20,686 nucleotides of DNA from Prasinococcaceae sp. CCMP 1430. Taxonomy: Eukaryota; Prasinodermophyta; Palmophyllophyceae; Prasinococcales; Prasinococcaceae. A program made the translations under genes and the position numbers. The stretch is from assembly GCA_013416795.1 (NCBI GenBank), contig RQSC01000005.1, positions 369,542 to 390,227 of the forward strand, read 5' to 3'. The notes beneath the pieces were generated by a model, which worked only from the letters and a program-made list of their open reading frames with translations, was not told where the DNA came from and ran no database searches. Below are positions 1-18,695 of the stretch, one piece after another (within the stretch, counting starts at the first letter, position 1; every line of letters starts with the position of its first letter).

Positions 1-987
1 CATCCGCGCGCACGCGCGACGCCCCCGTCCGCGCACGCGCGCGGGGCGGAATTTTCCCGAGCCGCGGGGCCGATCGGCCTGCCGGCCGGGGGCGCGCGCG
101 CACCAACGCGCGCCAACCCAAACCACCCACCCAAGGAATCAGCATGACCTCTCTCAGAATGACCTCCCATCACATACGAAACGAACCCGTATTCGAACAA
201 ACCGTAAACGCGACTCCAGCCAGTCCAGCCATGCTCCGCCATGCATGCTCCGAAAGGCACAAGGAAGCTTCCGCAGACGCGTGGGGAAAAGGGTTACAAG
301 GTGTGAGCGCTGATTTGAGGTTTGGCGCTTGGAGCGGGAGAGGAAAGGGTTCCACAAAATACGCGTACAGACCCTGATATTCAATGCATTCTGATGGTGA
401 TGTTGCAGAGTCGTGGCACCCCGCTGCGCCCGCACAAAAGCGGCCGGCAATGTCTGGTGGTGCGTGCGGGCAGGCGCTGTGCCAGGTCGCTGCCACAGCG
501 CGGGGCGCAGCGCCCTGCTGCCCGCCCGGCCCAAGCGCCAGCACAGCGGACCTGCATCCGTGCCCGCCATGGCGGCGGCGACCGCGCGCGCGCCCCTGCT
601 CACCCCTCCCTCACTCCCTCCCTCCCTCACTCACTCACTCACTCGAGCGCGCGCACCGCGCGCTCTCCGCCCAGGCCAGCCCACCCCCCAGCCCCCCACC
701 ACCACCCCGCCGCACCCCTCGCCGACCAACGTCAGGAGGGGCGCAGCGGAAACGCGGCAGGCGGCGTCGCGTGCGCGCTTCCTGCGCGCCTCCTGTGCGC
801 TTCTTGCGCGCGCGCGTGTGCGTGCGTCCGCGTGCGCGCGTGCAGGTGTGTGTGGCAGCGGGGAAGAGGAAGGGAGGGGGGGGAGGAAGGGCGTCGCGCC
901 CCCGCGCCCCCTCGCGCGCGGTGTGGCGCCGCGCCGCCCCGCGCAGCATGCCCGCCGCCGGGGCGCGCGGCTGTTGGGCGCGCGGCA
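1..987. other. GC-rich upstream region with simple repeats, no gene recognised
   Basis: Roughly the first 130 bases and positions 440-980 are extremely GC-rich. Between about 140 and 430 the composition is less extreme, and a short open frame lies on each strand there, but none resembles a known protein. A CTCACT-type run lies at about 600-645, and a purine-rich tract of mixed G and A at about 857-890. The region probably contains the promoter and 5' leader of the gene that follows. An upstream exon cannot be excluded, since a plausible acceptor (TTGCAG) occurs near 412-418. Confidence 0.5.
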
Positions 988-1600
988 ATGGCGCCGCTGC
1001 GGGGGCCTGCGAGCGCCCCGCACCGAATGCGGGCCAACACGGTGTGCAAGGGCGACACAGCGAAGAAGGCCAAGAGCAAGGCCAAGAGCAAGGCCAAAGG
1101 TAAGGACAAGAAGAGTGAGAAGAAGCTGGCCAAGACCGAGGCTAAGACTAAGACTAAGACCAAAGCCAAGGACAAGAAGAAGAAGAAGAAGCATAAGAAC
1201 ATCAACTCAGCAGAGGTGCGCTCGATGCGCCCGCAGGAGAGGTGCTGCGCGTGCGAAGGGAGGAGATGTTGAAGATGCGCGCTGTGTGAACCTGACACAC
1301 CCGGGACTTTGCGACTGGCAGGTTGGGGCGGTCGAGCTCGCCGCCGAGAAGGCAGCCGCGGCCGTGCTCGTGGAGTCGGTGCTCGAAGCAGAACGCGCTG
1401 CGAATGGTAGCTCTGCCCCAACAATGACATCCGCTGTCGGCGGCGGGCCCAGCTCCTCCCCGATACTCTCGGCCGCGACGACGAGCGGCGGCGCCGCGCA
1501 GGTTGCGGGCGCTCTGATAGTCTTCTCGCTCGGAGCGTGGGCGGCCGCCGCAGTTGCCATGGGAGACTTTGCGGCGTTTCACCTCGTCATGGGACTGTGA
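988..1600 (+). CDS. Lys-rich protein with C-terminal membrane segment, unknown function
   Basis: Not recognised. Two exons, 988-1215 and 1322-1600, join in phase 0 across a 106-bp intron (donor GTGCGC, acceptor CTGGCAG), giving 168 residues. Residues about 24-71 are dominated by Lys-Ala/Lys-Thr/Lys-Lys repeats, strongly basic and probably disordered. The second exon starts with an amphipathic Ala/Glu stretch and a Ser/Gly-rich linker. It ends with one hydrophobic segment at about 134-156, which could anchor the C-terminus in a membrane. The ATG at 988 was chosen for its good context (G at -3, G at +4); the ATG at 1027 has a poor one, and a start further upstream through another intron remains possible. 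The stop lies 111 bp from the convergent stop of the TFIIH gene. The low-complexity N-terminus gives no functional clue. The splice is supported because the two exon frames differ and both junctions are canonical. Confidence 0.5.
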
Positions 1601-1711
1601 TGTGATAGACATTAGTTATGAAGGTTTGTGTCGTGGGCTGTAATCCACCGCTGCCACGACGCACACCGCTGCACGAGCGAGCGAGGACGCGCTGGCGTGC
1701 ACGCACGAGCC

Positions 1712-3025
1712 TCATGCATCCGCCGACAGGCAACCCGGGCAGTTGTGTAGCGTCTGCAGGTACTGGTCACACGCGACGCACAGGAGTGTGCCGCAGCACG
1801 GTCGCCGTAGCACGACCTCGCCCGCACTGCTGCTGGTTGTGGTTGCCGCGCTGCGGTCGCTGTTTCCGCCGAGCACAAAGGTGCTGCCGCATGCGCCACA
1901 CGCTGCGCCCGCCGCCACGGATCCAGCGTCCGCGAGCACTGAGCGCGGGAGAGGAAACAGGTGGTGGTACGAGCGAGCCATCTGCAAGCTCGACGCCAGC
2001 GTGAGGTCGCACGTCGCGCAGATGGCCGGGAGCTCGGCCGCGTGCGTGCGGCAGCGCGGGCACACATTCACACGGGCGCCGTCCCCGTCGCCCTGAGATC
2101 CAGTGCCCGCCGCGCTAGCGGCGGTGGCCGCCGCGTCCTGCGCTTGCTTCGGGAAGCCCATGCAGATGAGAGACGCCGGCACGAGGTCACGTAGCGCCGG
2201 TGGCGGCTTGGCGTGCTCGAGCACGAGCGCGCGGAAGTGAGCCGCGTCGATCGCGACGCCACAAGTGCCCTTGGTTCGCTCGGCCAGCGTGCGGCACACG
2301 TACATCTCGGCGGAGAGCGACACTACGCTTGCGCGCACCTTGGCGCGCACGCATTGCGTGATCTCGACATTGATGTCGCCTGGGTCACACGTCGACAGCG
2401 TCGACGTCAACAGCAACGTCTCTCGCAAGCCGTACGTTGGCACGGCGGCGAGGGCCGTGCGCGCCATGTGTAGCGCGTTCTGCACGCTCGCGTCGCCTGA
2501 CGGCGAGGGTGCCGCGCGAATGGCGGCGAGGTGGGTGTCCGTGCTCGCGCTGAGCTCAGACAGGCGCACGCACACCCCGTCGTGCATCGCCAGCACCGCC
2601 ATGTGCGACAGCGGGTTTGCGTCGAAGAACTCGCGCACGAGCGCAGCCGCGGCCACCGCCGTCGCGCCTGCTCGGCTCGGCCTCACATCGGTTGCCGCCG
2701 CCGCCTTCGAGCAGTCCAGCACGAGGACAACGTAACGAATGACGCCACGCCGTGCGCGCTTCGCAGCTCGCGCAAGCTCCTCAGGGGTGTGCTGCGCCGC
2801 GAGATACGCCGCGCCCGCACCCGCCGCGCCGCCCTTTCGCGCCGTGCCGCGCAGGTTGCCATGCTCGTCCTCAGAGAGCTCCTCCCACGAGCGCTCGTCC
2901 ACGAGCGCGCGGCGGTTCGCGCCCGGCGCCGCAGGAACTCCGCCACCCGTGCCACCCACGGCAGCGCCGCCGCCCGCCCCATCAGCCTGCACGGCGCGGA
3001 AGACGGCGTCGAGGCGCGCCGACAT
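1712..3025 (-). CDS. GTF2H2: TFIIH core subunit p44 (Ssl1/GTF2H2)
   Basis: Intronless, 437 residues; human p44 is about 395 and yeast Ssl1 about 460. In this family the protein sits in the TFIIH core and stimulates the XPD helicase in transcription initiation and nucleotide-excision repair. A von Willebrand A-like fold covers about 95-270. It opens with a VLDCSK segment followed by a D-x-x-P-S-R stretch, the family's usual sequence around its metal-site-like motif, and contains a conserved LICMGFP just after the fold. The C-terminal half carries paired cysteines: C322/C325 with C336/C339, then C376/C379, C410/C411, C416/C419 and C429/C432, matching the zinc-finger plus C4-type RING layout of p44. 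The ATG at 3025 was chosen because it opens directly into the conserved acidic N-terminus (SWEELSEDE); in-frame sequence further upstream runs through the neighbour's promoter. The gene is head-to-head with the EF1-gamma-like gene (124 bp between ATGs). Variable Ala/Gly/Thr-rich insertions sit at about 297-320 and 381-402. Confidence 0.93.
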   Translation of the reverse strand: MSARLDAVFRAVQADGAGGGAAVGGTGGGVPAAPGANRRALVDERSWEELSEDEHGNLRGTARKGGAAGAGAAYLAAQHTPEELARAAKRARRGVIRYVVLVLDCSKAAAATDVRPSRAGATAVAAAALVREFFDANPLSHMAVLAMHDGVCVRLSELSASTDTHLAAIRAAPSPSGDASVQNALHMARTALAAVPTYGLRETLLLTSTLSTCDPGDINVEITQCVRAKVRASVVSLSAEMYVCRTLAERTKGTCGVAIDAAHFRALVLEHAKPPPALRDLVPASLICMGFPKQAQDAAATAASAAGTGSQGDGDGARVNVCPRCRTHAAELPAICATCDLTLASSLQMARSYHHLFPLPRSVLADAGSVAAGAACGACGSTFVLGGNSDRSAATTTSSSAGEVVLRRPCCGTLLCVACDQYLQTLHNCPGCLSADA

Positions 3026-3149
3026 CTGCCAGGGGCGCGCGCGCCCCGCGGCGGNGGGGGGCGGCGGCGCGCCACACGCGGCGCGGCGCGGCGGCATTGG
3101 CGGCGGCGGCGCGGGTGGGCGCGGGGGGCGTTCCCCTGGGCGGGGCGCG
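3026..3149. promoter_or_regulatory. Shared divergent promoter region
   Basis: Only 124 bp separate the two start codons. The stretch is nearly pure G/C with GGCGGC repeats and one unresolved base (n at 3055). No TATA box is visible. By position it must hold the core promoters of both genes; the individual elements cannot be told apart from sequence alone. Confidence 0.55.
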
Positions 3150-4037
3150 ATGGCACTCAGGCTGTACACGTACCCCAACGGCGCGAACGCGATGAAGGCT
3201 CTGATCGCGGCGGAATTCTCGGGCGCCGCGATTGAGCTGCCCCCGTTCGAGATGGTGCGGCCGATCAGCGATGGGCGCGCTTGCGCCTGGCGCCCGTACG
3301 GCCGCCGCCACGCGCGCGTGCTGACCGCGCTGATGAACGCCGCGGCGCGCGCTGCTGGGCAGGGGGTGACGAACAAGACTCCCGACTTCCTGAAACTCAA
3401 CCCGCGCGGGAAGGTGCCGACGCTCGAACTGCCGTGCGGCCGCGGCGTGTTTGAGTCCAATGCCATTGCGCGCTACGTCGCGCGGGTCAACGGCGGCGGC
3501 GGCGCGGCGCTCTTTGGCGCCAATGCGAGGGAGTACGCGGCGACCGAGCAGTGGCTAGACTTTGCGCAGAATGAGGTGGGCAGCAATGTCGGCGCGTGGC
3601 TGTGGCCGCTTTATGGGTTCCGCGCGTACGATGCCCAGGCGGAGGCGAAGGTGAGGGCCATGACACGTTGGGCAGCGAAGACCGCGCCGGTGCCAGCGCA
3701 TTCATACAGTATGTGGGCGTGACTGACGCCCACGCGCTCGTACTCTACAAAACGCTTCGTCTGCCTCCCCCAGGCGAAGGCCACCCTGAAGAAGGCGCTG
3801 CAGGTGGTGGAAAAGGTGCTCTCCAAGCAGGACTTCCTTGTGGGCGGTGCGCTGACGCTGGCGGACATCGTGATGTGCTGCACGCTGCTCAACGCCTTCC
3901 AGTCGCTTTTCGACGAGACCTTCCGCAAGGACATTCCGTCGATCACCAAGTACTTCGAACGCTGCGCGAAGCTGCCGCAGTTCAGGAAGCACATGGGCGA
4001 GGTGGTGCTGTGCAAGAAGACGATGCCGAAGCAATGA
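3150..4037 (+). CDS. GST-fold protein of the elongation factor 1-gamma type, without the EF1G C-terminal domain
   Basis: Three exons: 3150-3254, 3363-3650 and 3774-4037, all joined in phase 0, giving 218 residues. Intron 1 is 108 bp (donor GTGCGG) and intron 2 is 123 bp (donor GTGAGG, acceptor CCCCCAG). Removing intron 1 restores the family sequence, FEM joined to GVTNKTPDFLKLNPRGKVP. The N-terminal thioredoxin-like GST half contains LYTYPNGANAMKALIAA, the GKVPTLEL loop and the ESNAIARYVA segment. The C-terminal GST half has FLVGGALTLADI and the end GEVVLCKK, as in eEF1B-gamma. In that family the GST module organises the eEF1B nucleotide-exchange complex. Full-length eEF1B-gamma has about 400-440 residues with a second conserved domain. 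Here a stop follows immediately after the GST module, and only 115 bp remain before the convergent neighbour's stop. It may be a stand-alone EF1-gamma-like GST rather than the translation subunit itself. Confidence 0.9.
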
Positions 4038-4152: not shown

Positions 4153-6418
4153 TCAGTCAAACTTGCGCGATCGCACGCCGGCCATGAGGCCGCTCCTGCT
4201 GATGAGTTTCTTCAGACCGCGCGAGCTGAGCAGAGAGTACAGCGCCGCCCCGGCGAGCGCGATTGCTAGCAACATCCCGTATGGCGGGTGCGCCTCAGTG
4301 TAGCACACGAGCTCCGTCTGCAATCCCGCAGCAGCGTCGCCAAGCATCTCGTGCACGGCGCGAAGATCGTGGCGCGAGGAGCGCACGTAGTATGCGCTCG
4401 AGTTGAACGAGTGCAGGCTAGCGAGCGTGGCCGCCTTGCGCAGCTTGTGCGTGAGCAAATTCCAGCGGCGCACGAGCGCGTCATGGTCGGCTGGCGAGAG
4501 CGTCGCATGCTCGTCGCCTAACGCGGCGAAGCGGCTCAGCTCTGAGTGTGCAACGCGGGCATGTGCGTCGATGGCTGAGTGTAGCACGTGGCGAATCGCA
4601 GGGTCGGCCACGGAGAATGGCAGCATGGTTCCCGATGCCAGCGGGCCCAGCGGCGAGTGCCCCTGCAAAGCAAATGCGCACAGCATGCCAAGCGAGCACA
4701 CGAAAGCAGAGCGTTAGCGACCGCCGGCCAAGCCAACACGTACCCGCAGGGGGGCGCAGAGTTCGCAAGTGCGCACGTACCACAGTCCAAAGCGCATCAT
4801 AGCGCAGCTCGCCCCCGCGCGTCTCACTGTCACTCCCGCTCCACCCCGCTCCCGCGCGTGGCACTCCGTAGAGCGCCTCCAGCAGTGCTCCAAGAATGTC
4901 GCGTGGCAGGTCATTCGGGTCGATCACAGCGGCGACTCCACCGCACTCGCTCTGCGAAACGGCTGGATCCGACCTCGAGCGCGACGCAACCACCTGATCG
5001 GCCGCAGCCGATGCCGCGATACCGCCGTCAAGCAGCAGCGAGTCCGTCATGTGCGCCATATCGAAGACGTACACTGGTACGACCCTGCGCTGCTTGATGC
5101 CGCCACCGCCGTGCTCGTCGAGTCCTGCAGGCGCGCGCTCAGCGTCCGCAACCGAAGGCCCGAAGGTTGCAACAACCTTGCGTTCGCCTATAGCAGCGGC
5201 CAGTACACTGTGGCGCATCGCGCGCATGTCCCAGTGCAGCTGCTTCGAGTCGAGAGTGACAGGGCCATGCGCGGCGGCCGCCGTTGCAGCCGCCCCCGGC
5301 GCGGGCGCTGCGGATGTAAGCGCCGCTGCGTACGCCGCGGAGCATGCGTCGCATCTCTGCAGGTCAGTAACCACGGCTGTGAGGGCGAGCGTCTGTCCAT
5401 TGAGCAGCAGCGGCTCGAGCTCCTCCACGGCTGACGCAACGGCCCGCTTGAGCTCGGCGTGACGCTTGGGATCGGCGTGGTCCATGACGTGCACCAGATT
5501 CACCTCCGTCTCCACCACAAGCGCCTGCCGCCGCACCATCGGAGGGGCCACCAGCGCCCGCACGGTGCGCAGTACAAGCGCTGCAACATCCACAGGCAGG
5601 CGCTCCGCGTGCCGCGGCGCCCCAGCGCCAACGGCCGCGCGTGGCAGGCGCGCTGCGCGCGGCAGCGTGTCTGGAAGCACCACGCCCTCCCCGACGCCTG
5701 CCGGGCCGTAGTGCACAGGACCGGCAGTGAGGTCGATCCACGCGTAGCGCTCCCGAGATGCGTACAGCGTTCCGTCGCAGCCACCGTCGCCGGTTTGGCC
5801 GTATCTGTACGTGTAGTTGCGCGGCATCGCCTTGGGGTTGAGCACGTACACGGCGTATGCGAGACTGCTCTCGTGGTGGTCCGCCGCGATGATGTCGTCC
5901 ACGGCGGAGTGCGGCAGCTGCAGGGTCGCGCCGGGGGGCACGCGCCCTCCGGATGCCTCCGCTGCCGCCGCCGCCCCCTCGTATGCATCACCCAGGGAGC
6001 GCTCTATCATATCGGCAAAGCGATCGCTCGCCTTACGAACGTTGAAGTAGAACGCCGTCTCGATCGGCAGCGCATGCGGCGCTGCGCGCGCGGCGAGGCG
6101 AGTGTCGTCAGGCGCATCGCCCAAGAGCACGTGCGCGCTGTCCGCGAGGTTGGCAGCCTCTAGGTACGTGGACACGTCTGCCGCCTCGAGCTGCGCGCTC
6201 CCGCCATGATGCCCACCGAAGCCGACGAGGATGACCTCGACGGTCGACGACGTGCGGAGCGAGGACATGTCTCTGAGGAGCGAGCTGAGCGCAGCGTCTG
6301 CGTGCGTGGGCGCGCGCCACGTGGCCTGCTCGGCGGGGCTGAGCCGCTCGAACGTATCCACCGCTCCAAGCGGATCCACCTCCGCGCCGTGCAGCCGCGC
6401 CTCGTCGCGCCGCGGCAC
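4153..6418 (-). CDS. Large C-terminally anchored membrane protein, uncharacterised plant/algal-type family; 5' end unresolved
   Basis: Two exons, 6418-4781 and 4662-4153, joined in phase 0 across a 118-bp intron (donor GTACGT, acceptor TTTGCAG), giving at least 715 residues. Recognisable segments are VEVILVGFGG near the N-terminus, AWIDLTAGPVHYGP in the middle, and VPVYVFDM followed by DSLLLDG and PNDLPRDILGALLEALYGV. I recall these as resembling the large, mostly unstudied transmembrane proteins of Arabidopsis typified by At5g58100/At3g28720; that comparison is from memory and needs a search. One hydrophobic helix lies at about 675-692, followed by a basic tail (KKLISRSG), suggesting a lumenal body with a short cytosolic C-terminus. 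The coordinate 6418 is the limit of the conserved-looking open frame, not a start codon: the codon there is GTG and an in-frame stop lies at 6449-6451. A true start with a signal peptide probably lies in an upstream exon. An ATG at 6509 in another frame (MRRRARGRAAPRAAALG) could serve if there is a short intron or a sequence error. Confidence 0.7.
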
Positions 6419-11488: not shown

Positions 11489-12261
11489 ATGAGGCCGAAA
11501 TGGTGCGTGCGGCGCCGCGCGGGGGCGGGGGCGAGGGTGGGTGGAGGCGAAGGGGTAGCGCCGTGCTCGGCGGCCTGCCTGCCATAGTGACAAACTTTTC
11601 TGGCTTTACGGGCTTCTGCGACTCCTGCCCGTCGGCGACTATACCGCCGTGCGCGTCTCCGACACCGGCACCGGCATCCCGCCCGAGATCCTCGCCAAGA
11701 TCTGGGAGCCCTTCTTCACCACCAAGGAAGTCGGCAAGGGCACCGGCCTCGGCCTCTCCACCGTCTACGGCATCATCAAGCAGTCGGGCGGCTTCATCTT
11801 CGCCGACAATGGCCGCCACGGCGGCGCCGAGTTCACCATCTACCTCCCGGTCCATGCCGCGACCGAGGCGCCGGTGACCGCGCTGGTGCCGGGCATCAAG
11901 GAAAAGCCCGCCGACACCTGGGGCACCGGCACGATCCTGGTCGTCGAGGACGAGGACATGGTCCGCGCCATCGCCGAGCGCGCGCTCAGCGGCTCGGAGA
12001 TACCTCGGCGAGCAATGCGGCCTGCTCCCCTGCGCCCTGGGGCTGAGCCGCCGCGCGGAACTGCCGCCGCCGGTCGTGCCCCGCGCGCGCGCGCGCGCGC
12101 GTCTGGCCCTTTGGTTTGCCGTGTTTTTCGGCGATGAGGGTGAGGCCCAACCGAGGCTGACCGATCTGTGCGCTCCACCGCACGCGTGCACCCGCAGGAG
12201 GAAGAAGCGCATGAGGCGCCTCAAGCGCAAGAGGAGGAAGATGAGGCAGCGCTCCAAGTAG
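11489..12261 (+). CDS. RPL41: Ribosomal protein eL41
   Basis: Two exons, 11489-11502 (14 nt) and 12198-12261 (64 nt), splice in phase 2 to 25 codons plus TAG, exactly the universal length of eL41. The product starts MRPKW and continues [20 protein letters not shown], almost identical to eL41 of yeast and animals, which start MRAKW. The protein is a short basic helix in eukaryotic ribosomes, bridging the large and small subunits. The donor is GTGCGT and the acceptor CACCCGCAG. The Trp codon is split after its second base; joining TG with G restores it, which fixes the junction to the base. The 5' exon is too small to be found by open-frame searches. The 695-bp intron is by far the longest in the window and contains a fragment of a bacterial gene (see separate entry). 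The upstream repeats may be its promoter elements. Confidence 0.96.
11503..12197 (+). other. 695-bp intron of the eL41 gene
   Basis: Starts GTGCGTGCGG and ends CACCCGCAG. Other introns in the window are 106-334 bp. About 120 bases of host-like sequence precede the bacterial segment. After it, about 90 bases of mixed sequence lead into a CG dinucleotide run (about 12082-12100) and then host-like sequence up to the acceptor. Its length is explained mainly by the inserted bacterial segment. Confidence 0.93.
11622..11986 (+). pseudogene. cckA: Fragment of an alphaproteobacterial CckA-type hybrid histidine kinase gene
   Basis: One frame encodes, without a break, the C-terminal half of a histidine-kinase ATPase domain and the beginning of a receiver domain. 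It starts near [15 protein letters not shown], with the G1-box [22 protein letters not shown], the G2-box GTGLGLS, then [16 protein letters not shown] and [13 protein letters not shown] linker leads to [24 protein letters not shown], where similarity stops. This order and wording matches CckA, the cell-cycle hybrid kinase of alphaproteobacteria. The dimerisation/phospho-His domain, the ATPase N-box and the receiver phospho-acceptor Asp are all absent, so it cannot work as a kinase. Codons end overwhelmingly in C (GGC, ATC, ACC, CTC), unlike the more mixed host genes. It lies wholly inside the eL41 intron in the same orientation. Boundaries are accurate to about 10 bases. The intact frame suggests a recent insertion; an assembly or library chimera is the main alternative. 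Confidence 0.9.
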
Positions 12262-14058: not shown

Positions 14059-14752
14059 GGCCGCGGCCCGCAGCCCGCCCGCCTATGGGCCCCCTGCCCT
14101 CCTGCCCGCCCGCCGGGGCTGCTCCCCCCCGCCGCGTCTCCGCGCGACGCCAGCGGACGGCTCCTGCCGGTGCCTGAACCGAGGTCGCGGGGGAGGGAGG
14201 AGTGGGAGGTGGGATATCGCGCAGGCGAGCGCGCCAGTGGGGGGGCGAACGCGCCGCACGAACTTGCCGCGCTCCTCGGCGCCGCTGGGGAACGCGTCCG
14301 GCCCGCCGCGATCTCGCACGGCCGTGGCCGTGGCCCCGCCGCCTCTAATCGCTCTTTTCGCGCCCCTCATCATTTCTGGATGTTTTACCCCCTGTCCGCG
14401 CCCCGCGCGCCCCGGCGCCGCCGGCGATCGCCGCGCGCCGCCCCGGGTCGTTTCCAGGGTGCCCCGCCCCGCGGGGCGCCCCTTTTCGGATGCGGTTTGA
14501 GTTTCGTTTTCGAACGGCGCGACGACGCGTTTTCGCGCCCGGCCGGCGCGCGGGCAGAGGGGGGGTCCCGCCGGCGAAGACGGAGGGCGAGGGCGAGGCC
14601 AAGGAGGGCATCACCGAGGCGGGCGGCACCAGCAGCACACGGCGCGCGCCCGCGGCGGCGGGCGGGTGTGGGGCGGGGAGGCGAGGGGAGGGGAGTAGAG
14701 AGGCGAGGAGGGAAGGGGTGGGGTGGGGGGGTGTTCGGGGGGCGGGGCGGCG
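14059..14752. promoter_or_regulatory. Divergent upstream region between the transporter and CAF-1 p60 genes
   Basis: A 694-bp GC-rich stretch with C-rich and G-rich runs, a short AT-richer patch at about 14365-14395, and a purine-rich segment (GGGGAGGCGAGGGGAGGGGAG type) at about 14676-14750 immediately before the CAF-1 ATG. It should hold both promoters and 5' leaders. Long open frames crossing it have no recognisable content. Confidence 0.5.
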
Positions 14753-18323: not shown

Positions 18324-18695
18324 CGCCGCCGCGTCCGACCCGCCGCCATCGCAATCCCTGCCGACTCTTCCCTCACCCACATCATCTCCACTGCCGGGCA
18401 CGCCGCTGGCACCGTTGGCAGACCACCGCTTCGGGTCGGCACTGGAGCTAGCAGTGCCATCGCCAGCAGCCCCTTTGTCCTCCGCAACCGGCACGGCCGC
18501 GGCGAGCTCCGCCTTNGCGCTCGGCGCAGGCACGCGGCGCGAGGCGGCGCCCCCGCGCGGAGGCGGGTGGGGGGAATTAGTGGAGGGGGTTGTGGACGGC
18601 GGAGGGAGGTGGAGAGGGAGGTCCCGGCGGAGGGGCGGGCGGGCGGGCGGGCGAGCGGGCGGGCGGGCGCGCCCAGGGGGGTAGCCTCTGGAGCC
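18324..18695. promoter_or_regulatory. Divergent promoter region between the coiled-coil and ARL1 genes
   Basis: Contains one unresolved base (n at 18516) and a run of GGGC units at about 18636-18669, reminiscent of clustered GC boxes, ending about 25 bp before the ARL1 ATG. The minus-strand coding frame remains open through the proximal half (AELAAAVPVAEDKG and an acidic Gly-rich stretch). The coiled-coil protein could therefore extend further if an upstream start or exon exists, but no in-frame ATG occurs before the ARL1 start. Confidence 0.5.

Follow-up and report, generated by a model that had tools for sequence, protein, structure and literature searches.

The window analysed here is a stretch of 20,686 nucleotides from Prasinococcaceae sp. 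CCMP 1430 (contig RQSC01000005.1, positions 369,542 to 390,227, forward strand). At 11489-12261 it carries the two-exon gene of the ribosomal protein eL41, whose spliced translation is an intact 25-residue protein, and the intron of this gene holds an insertion that is in part bacterial (Table 1). Elsewhere in the window, a large open reading frame (ORF) on the reverse strand (4481-6418) contains a DUF7906 domain (2.3e-39); an Rfam search of the window returned no match at the gathering score.

The eL41 intron and its composite insertion

An earlier note on this DNA had put the eL41 splice junction at 11502/12198, which the spliced translation and the GT-AG intron show to be exact, and had placed a bacterial piece between the two exons, as is borne out by the 25-residue product. 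The bacterial DNA measures 366 bp; the limits first given for it, 11622-11986, have given way to 11623-11988, although the frame read between the first limits is indeed open for 121 residues, with neither stop nor frameshift.

Table 1. Features of the eL41 gene and of the insertion in its intron (window coordinates)
Feature	Position	Strand	Remarks
eL41 exon 1	11489..11502	+	codes MRPK and two bases of W
eL41 intron	11503..12197	+	GT...AG, 695 bp
Direct repeat GCTCGG (6 bp), left copy	11565..11570	+	edge of composite insertion
Host segment, 53 bp	11570..11622	+	100% identical to C106:1975-2027(-), in a glycosyltransferase group 1 ORF
Sphingomonas cckA fragment	11623..11988	+	second part of HATPase, linker, start of receiver; in frame, no stop
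Direct repeat GCTCGG (6 bp), right copy	11992..11997	+	flanks the insertion on the right
(CG)10 run	12082..12101	+	3' side of insertion; possible site of a false overlap
eL41 exon 2	12198..12261	+	includes stop codon; read from spliced translation

What the earlier note overlooked is a second, host-derived piece that directly abuts the cckA piece on its left. When the 2 kb around the insert were searched in the alga's own genome, one match was found besides self, on the other strand of contig C106 and within a 517-aa ORF that carries glycosyltransferase group 1 domains. Since the host piece adjoins the cckA piece, the insertion is composite: its two parts differ in source, and its joins are blunt.

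The ends of the insertion are sharp, and donor homology has no clear extension past either edge. In 14 comparisons of cckA homology beyond the edges, the relatives L003 (right edge) and L002 (left edge) came out best, but their scores were reached by 17 and 33 of 500 shuffles, respectively, which we take as not significant; alignments of a few other relatives extend to 12004 with gaps, and homology past the edges is mostly at the level of shuffles. Further host matches within 11984-12200 are limited to self and a 20-bp CG palindrome. No N stands at the edges of the insertion, the only Ns of the window being at 3055 and 18516. The insertion is flanked by a 6-bp direct repeat that was sought after the insertion had already been seen; a repeat of this length arises by chance in 3.7% of random draws at GC-rich sites and in 1.6% at all sites.

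The intron just outside the composite insertion has a GC content of 82% and 80% on its two sides, at about the 95th percentile of the window, which has about 70% overall; the insert has 69%. With insert and host so nearly equal, two compositional arguments made earlier fall away: C-ending codons do not mark the insert as foreign, and a GC step at its edges, proposed as a sign that would refute it, is uninformative.

Placement of the bacterial piece in Sphingomonas

The proposal that the piece comes from an alphaproteobacterial CckA is supported by the NCBIfam models—the CckA equivalogs are the two best of 73 matches (E 1.7e-41 and 7.3e-41), both scoring below whole-protein cut-offs because the sequence is a fragment—and can now be narrowed to Sphingomonas by a tree. 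The HATPase_c profile (111 positions) matches the frame at 2.7e-15, but only with its positions 36-109. Placed on an 825-aa ORF, the fragment covers residues 605-725; the HisKA domain with its phospho-acceptor histidine lies outside it, with no HisKA match in the frame, and the receiver domain is incomplete, as the fragment stops after the first residues of that domain, without the receiver aspartate.

Relatives were sought among species-representative prokaryote contigs, and the best 80 of 558 confirmed relatives were used. The top six of these are all Sphingomonas, 88-90% identical over all 121 residues. The best DNA match among the same 80 is the cckA of S. kyeonggiensis DS2008, with 91.0% identity over 365 aligned positions and two small gaps (window 11625-11988); that of S. 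leidyi is 89% identical, without a gap (11625-11987). Chance is excluded as the source of the match. A protein search was made with the matching part of the CckA of strain R-74633 as query, in which the 8000 candidates sharing most words were scored and 77 are listed at E <= 1e-50; the public Sphingomonas CckA protein P0003 is identical to the insert frame at 118 of 121 residues, and of the three residues that differ one belongs to the first codon, which spans the join.

A tree built from the insert and the 42 higher-ranked of the 80 loci (L002-L043, without the lower 38, L044-L081) places the insert within Sphingomonas, where strain R-74633 is its sister with support 98/94. Its end branch of 0.051 is about that of the sister (0.054), so the change along it is what would be expected had it occurred in the bacterium. 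Between the insert and seven Sphingomonas sequences, dN/dS is 0.145-0.224, as against 0.076-0.194 among those seven; the insert is slightly higher, yet well short of the 1 that a long-silent copy would have. Private changes among seven sequences, given as nonsynonymous to synonymous, number 6:4 in the insert (two of the ten in the codon at the join), 4:1 in L002, 2:3 in L003, 1:2 in L004, 0:4 in L005, none in L006 and 2:4 in L007. The insert is on the nonsynonymous side, like L002; the counts are too few for a conclusion about decay. The near-identity to P0003 and the frame free of stops and frameshifts give no sign of long residence.

Other DNA of the donor was sought in the assembly with a small set of probes. 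The 8.4-kb cckA region of S. kyeonggiensis matches only the piece in the eL41 intron, the TonB plug family has no match in the assembly, and the only match of the LysR HTH adjoins an rps2-like ORF in organelle-like sequence. A 16S search over two Sphingomonas genomes, meant to provide a comparison, gave 0 of 2. Bulk contamination of the assembly by Sphingomonas was not found with these few probes (cckA region, LysR HTH, TonB plug), which may miss pieces.

Displaced segments, single Ns and a mixed contig

When 20,000 window bases were searched in the alga's own genome, 29 matches were listed, four of them 98-100% identical and the others 69-92%. The near-identical four are segments of 387 bp (shared with C73), 187 bp (C82), 59 bp (C79) and the 53 bp from C106 that form the host part of the insertion. 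The 387-bp segment (window 1781-2167) is part of an Ssl1 (TFIIH) ORF and recurs without difference in C73:107050-107436; we judge it native in the window, where the ORF runs through, and displaced in C73, where a single N—found via this match—touches the copy. The 187-bp segment (18329-18515), which lies beside an Arf-family gene and is shared with C82:307128-307314, ends exactly at the N at 18516 and is judged displaced in the window, as an open frame runs through the C82 copy. The 59-bp segment (14567-14625) is 98% identical to C79:231311-231369 and has no N nearby. An ORF through the other copy was the basis for judging which copy is displaced in three pairs: C106 and window 11570, window 1781 and C73, and C82 and window 18329.

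Similar material was found in two 10-kb stretches elsewhere, each of which contains one N. In C50 (L107), one of 21 matches is near-identical: 2845 bp at 906-3750, 100% identical to C77:225913-228756, which end beside an N at C50:3751 and encode a dynein heavy-chain fragment that breaks off inside AAA_9 (profile positions 2-149 of 222). Directly before it is a stretch with 74% similarity to the Arf-family region of the window. In C144, four of 12 matches are 99-100% identical and at least 93 bp long (755, 502, 172 and 93 bp); the longest of them, with 99% identity to C107, stops at 2412, beside an N at C144:2413, and the other three touch no N in the searched locus. The segments of C50 and C144 are displaced or duplicated.

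Over all 40 kb compared with the whole assembly, nine segments of at least 53 bp recur elsewhere at 98-100% identity. Four Ns were searched before any match was known, and at three of them, window 18516, C50:3751 and C144:2413, a near-identical segment (187, 2845 and 755 bp, respectively) ends exactly beside the N; the N at window 3055 has no such neighbour. These four and the N in C73 are the ones tested, from a count of 11 single Ns in 131,089 host bases. We infer that the single Ns are assembly joins.

Contig C136 (476,838 bp) is of mixed content: nuclear-like DNA of 68% GC at 100-110 kb; at 246-256 kb, an rRNA operon of bacterial or plastid type with atpA and rbcL next to it; at 390-400 kb, a different plastid sequence that carries rps7, ndhB, ndhG and an rbcL of its own; and another SSU near the end of the contig. 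The identities of rps7 and ndhG were checked by Pfam; atpA, rbcL and ndhB are what we take these genes to be by eye. Two different intact rbcL genes imply at least two plastid genomes on C136, and the contig must therefore be chimeric or mixed with another alga. At C136:283800 (L120), within organelle-like sequence, a LysR-type regulator ORF lies downstream of an ORF that we presume by eye to be rps2-like; a LysR gene in a green plastid would be unusual.

Mitochondrial rRNA genes also appear in more than one place. In one stretch (L101), rnl, rns and rnl pieces share a strand, with another rnl piece on the opposite one; this is the unusual order given for the mitochondrial rRNA genes of Prasinoderma coloniale in PMC3873408, which names cob and rps12 as their neighbours. 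Judged by this rRNA gene order, the host would almost certainly be that species. The mitochondrial rRNA stretches L085 (C41, 72 kb) and L086 (C98, 226 kb) are identical over 3542 bp, and may be two mitochondrial inverted-repeat copies or mitochondrial DNA joined to other sequence.

Origin of the insertion

We consider it probable, at about 0.68, that the cckA insertion is a misjoin or wrong gap fill of the assembly and not a product of the alga. Under this reading, a very GC-rich stretch of the eL41 intron would have been wrongly bridged—first by the 53 bp from the host's glycosyltransferase ORF, then by 366 bp of cckA from a Sphingomonas in the sequenced material, whose reads would have been present in the data—and the composite bridge would have been closed onto the remainder of the intron. 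Low coverage of GC-rich DNA may have prompted the wrong bridge, the (CG)10 run may have aided a false closure, and the insertion could have arisen in the same way as the segments beside Ns. Sphingomonas is a common reagent contaminant genus.

This reading starts from what is observed: the insertion is composite, each of its pieces is identical or nearly so to its source, and there are other displaced pieces, several of which exactly abut single Ns. The displaced near-identical pieces, together with the mixed contig C136, favour a misjoin or wrong gap fill; as the insertion is the same kind of material as the segments next to Ns and lies in a very GC-rich intron, we judge a wrong fill or misjoin to be likeliest. 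Several points stand against an artefact: both flanks belong to the same gene, unlike in a random library ligation; the blunt joins lack the overlaps that an assembler normally needs; neither edge has an N; the flanking 6-bp repeat has a chance of 1.6-3.7%; no other Sphingomonas DNA came up with the few probes used; and the 59-bp piece at window 14567, like three of the C144 segments, touches no N. Moreover, the published P. coloniale strain is described in PMC7455551 as axenic and sequenced with long reads, with its contigs screened for bacteria; however, the assembly analysed here, with 145 contigs and single Ns, appears to differ from the 22-chromosome one presented there.

Several of the same features would suit a genuine capture, which we hold as a tentative second explanation. 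In this case, non-homologous end joining would have mended a double-strand break in the eL41 intron and taken in two stray fragments, a part of the alga's own glycosyltransferase gene and a bit of DNA from a lysed Sphingomonas; the patch would be tolerated as it is spliced out, and would be too recent for visible decay. The blunt joins of two fragments, the flanking direct repeat, the lack of N at the edges, the intact splice sites with a complete eL41, and the isolation of the one bacterial piece in the searches made would fit such an event, and mosaic captures are described for organelle DNA in PMC6215612. Against it stand the displaced segments and the mixed contig elsewhere in the assembly, and the identity of 118 of 121 residues to a public protein means that the event would have to be recent. 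The earlier note had read the locus as a natural capture in a host intron: the cckA piece in the intron stands, but capture by the living alga is put in doubt by the displaced segments, the N-abutments and C136. Relatives of the donor Sphingomonas are mainly from soil and fresh water, which, like the occurrence of the genus as a reagent contaminant, would also tell against capture. The fuller claim—that a recent composite break-repair patch truly sits in the intron of an essential ribosomal gene of the alga, whose nucleus, as the other displaced gene fragments would then imply, takes up loose DNA, both its own and bacterial, at a high rate—we regard as unlikely.

An old transfer retained for a function, with the fragment kept as an intronic element or giving a protein, is very improbable: the frame is open for 121 residues and nonsynonymous changes prevail among the private ones (6 to 4), but the piece starts and stops inside domains, has neither the phospho-acceptor histidine domain nor the receiver aspartate, and has an end branch like that of its bacterial sister. 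We therefore reject a functional element or protein, and no result suggests the intronic role that had been raised as a possibility. With 19 HATPase_c matches at E <= 0.001 in the genome, insert included, the frame might be taken for part of a histidine kinase of the alga itself; this is scarcely credible given 91% DNA identity to Sphingomonas, and is rejected by the tree.

If the insertion is an artefact, it is a warning: with nine near-identical segments in 40 kb, any gene transfer or duplication claimed from this assembly should be backed by reads. If it is real, bacterial DNA would have been caught entering an algal nucleus by end joining, before decay, with a donor known to the level of genus and a piece of host DNA ligated to the bacterial one. 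The titles and abstract openings of the literature surveyed do not report the insertion; nothing wider is claimed.

The insertion resembles numts, nupts and mosaic numins (PMC6215612) in that short fragments of different origin are joined in a nuclear genome, as expected of end joining; it differs in its sources, a free bacterium for one fragment and a nuclear gene for the other, and its presence in the living alga is putative. Filler DNA in double-strand break repair (see PMC2567098, PMC2671141) is likewise composite and has a short direct repeat at its ends, whereas here a single assembled allele was compared and the repaired break is putative. The likeness to the hybrid histidine kinase CckA of Sphingomonas is one of sequence (118 of 121 residues to P0003, 91% of DNA to S. 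kyeonggiensis DS2008); the insert holds only 121 of about 800 residues, without HisKA or phosphorylation sites, and lies in the intron of a eukaryote. Chimeric assembly and contamination are known faults of eukaryotic genome sequences; the eL41 insertion differs from them in having no N and in the continuous host flanks on both sides, and shares with them the short, near-identical foreign or displaced pieces, several beside single Ns, and the company of a mixed contig.
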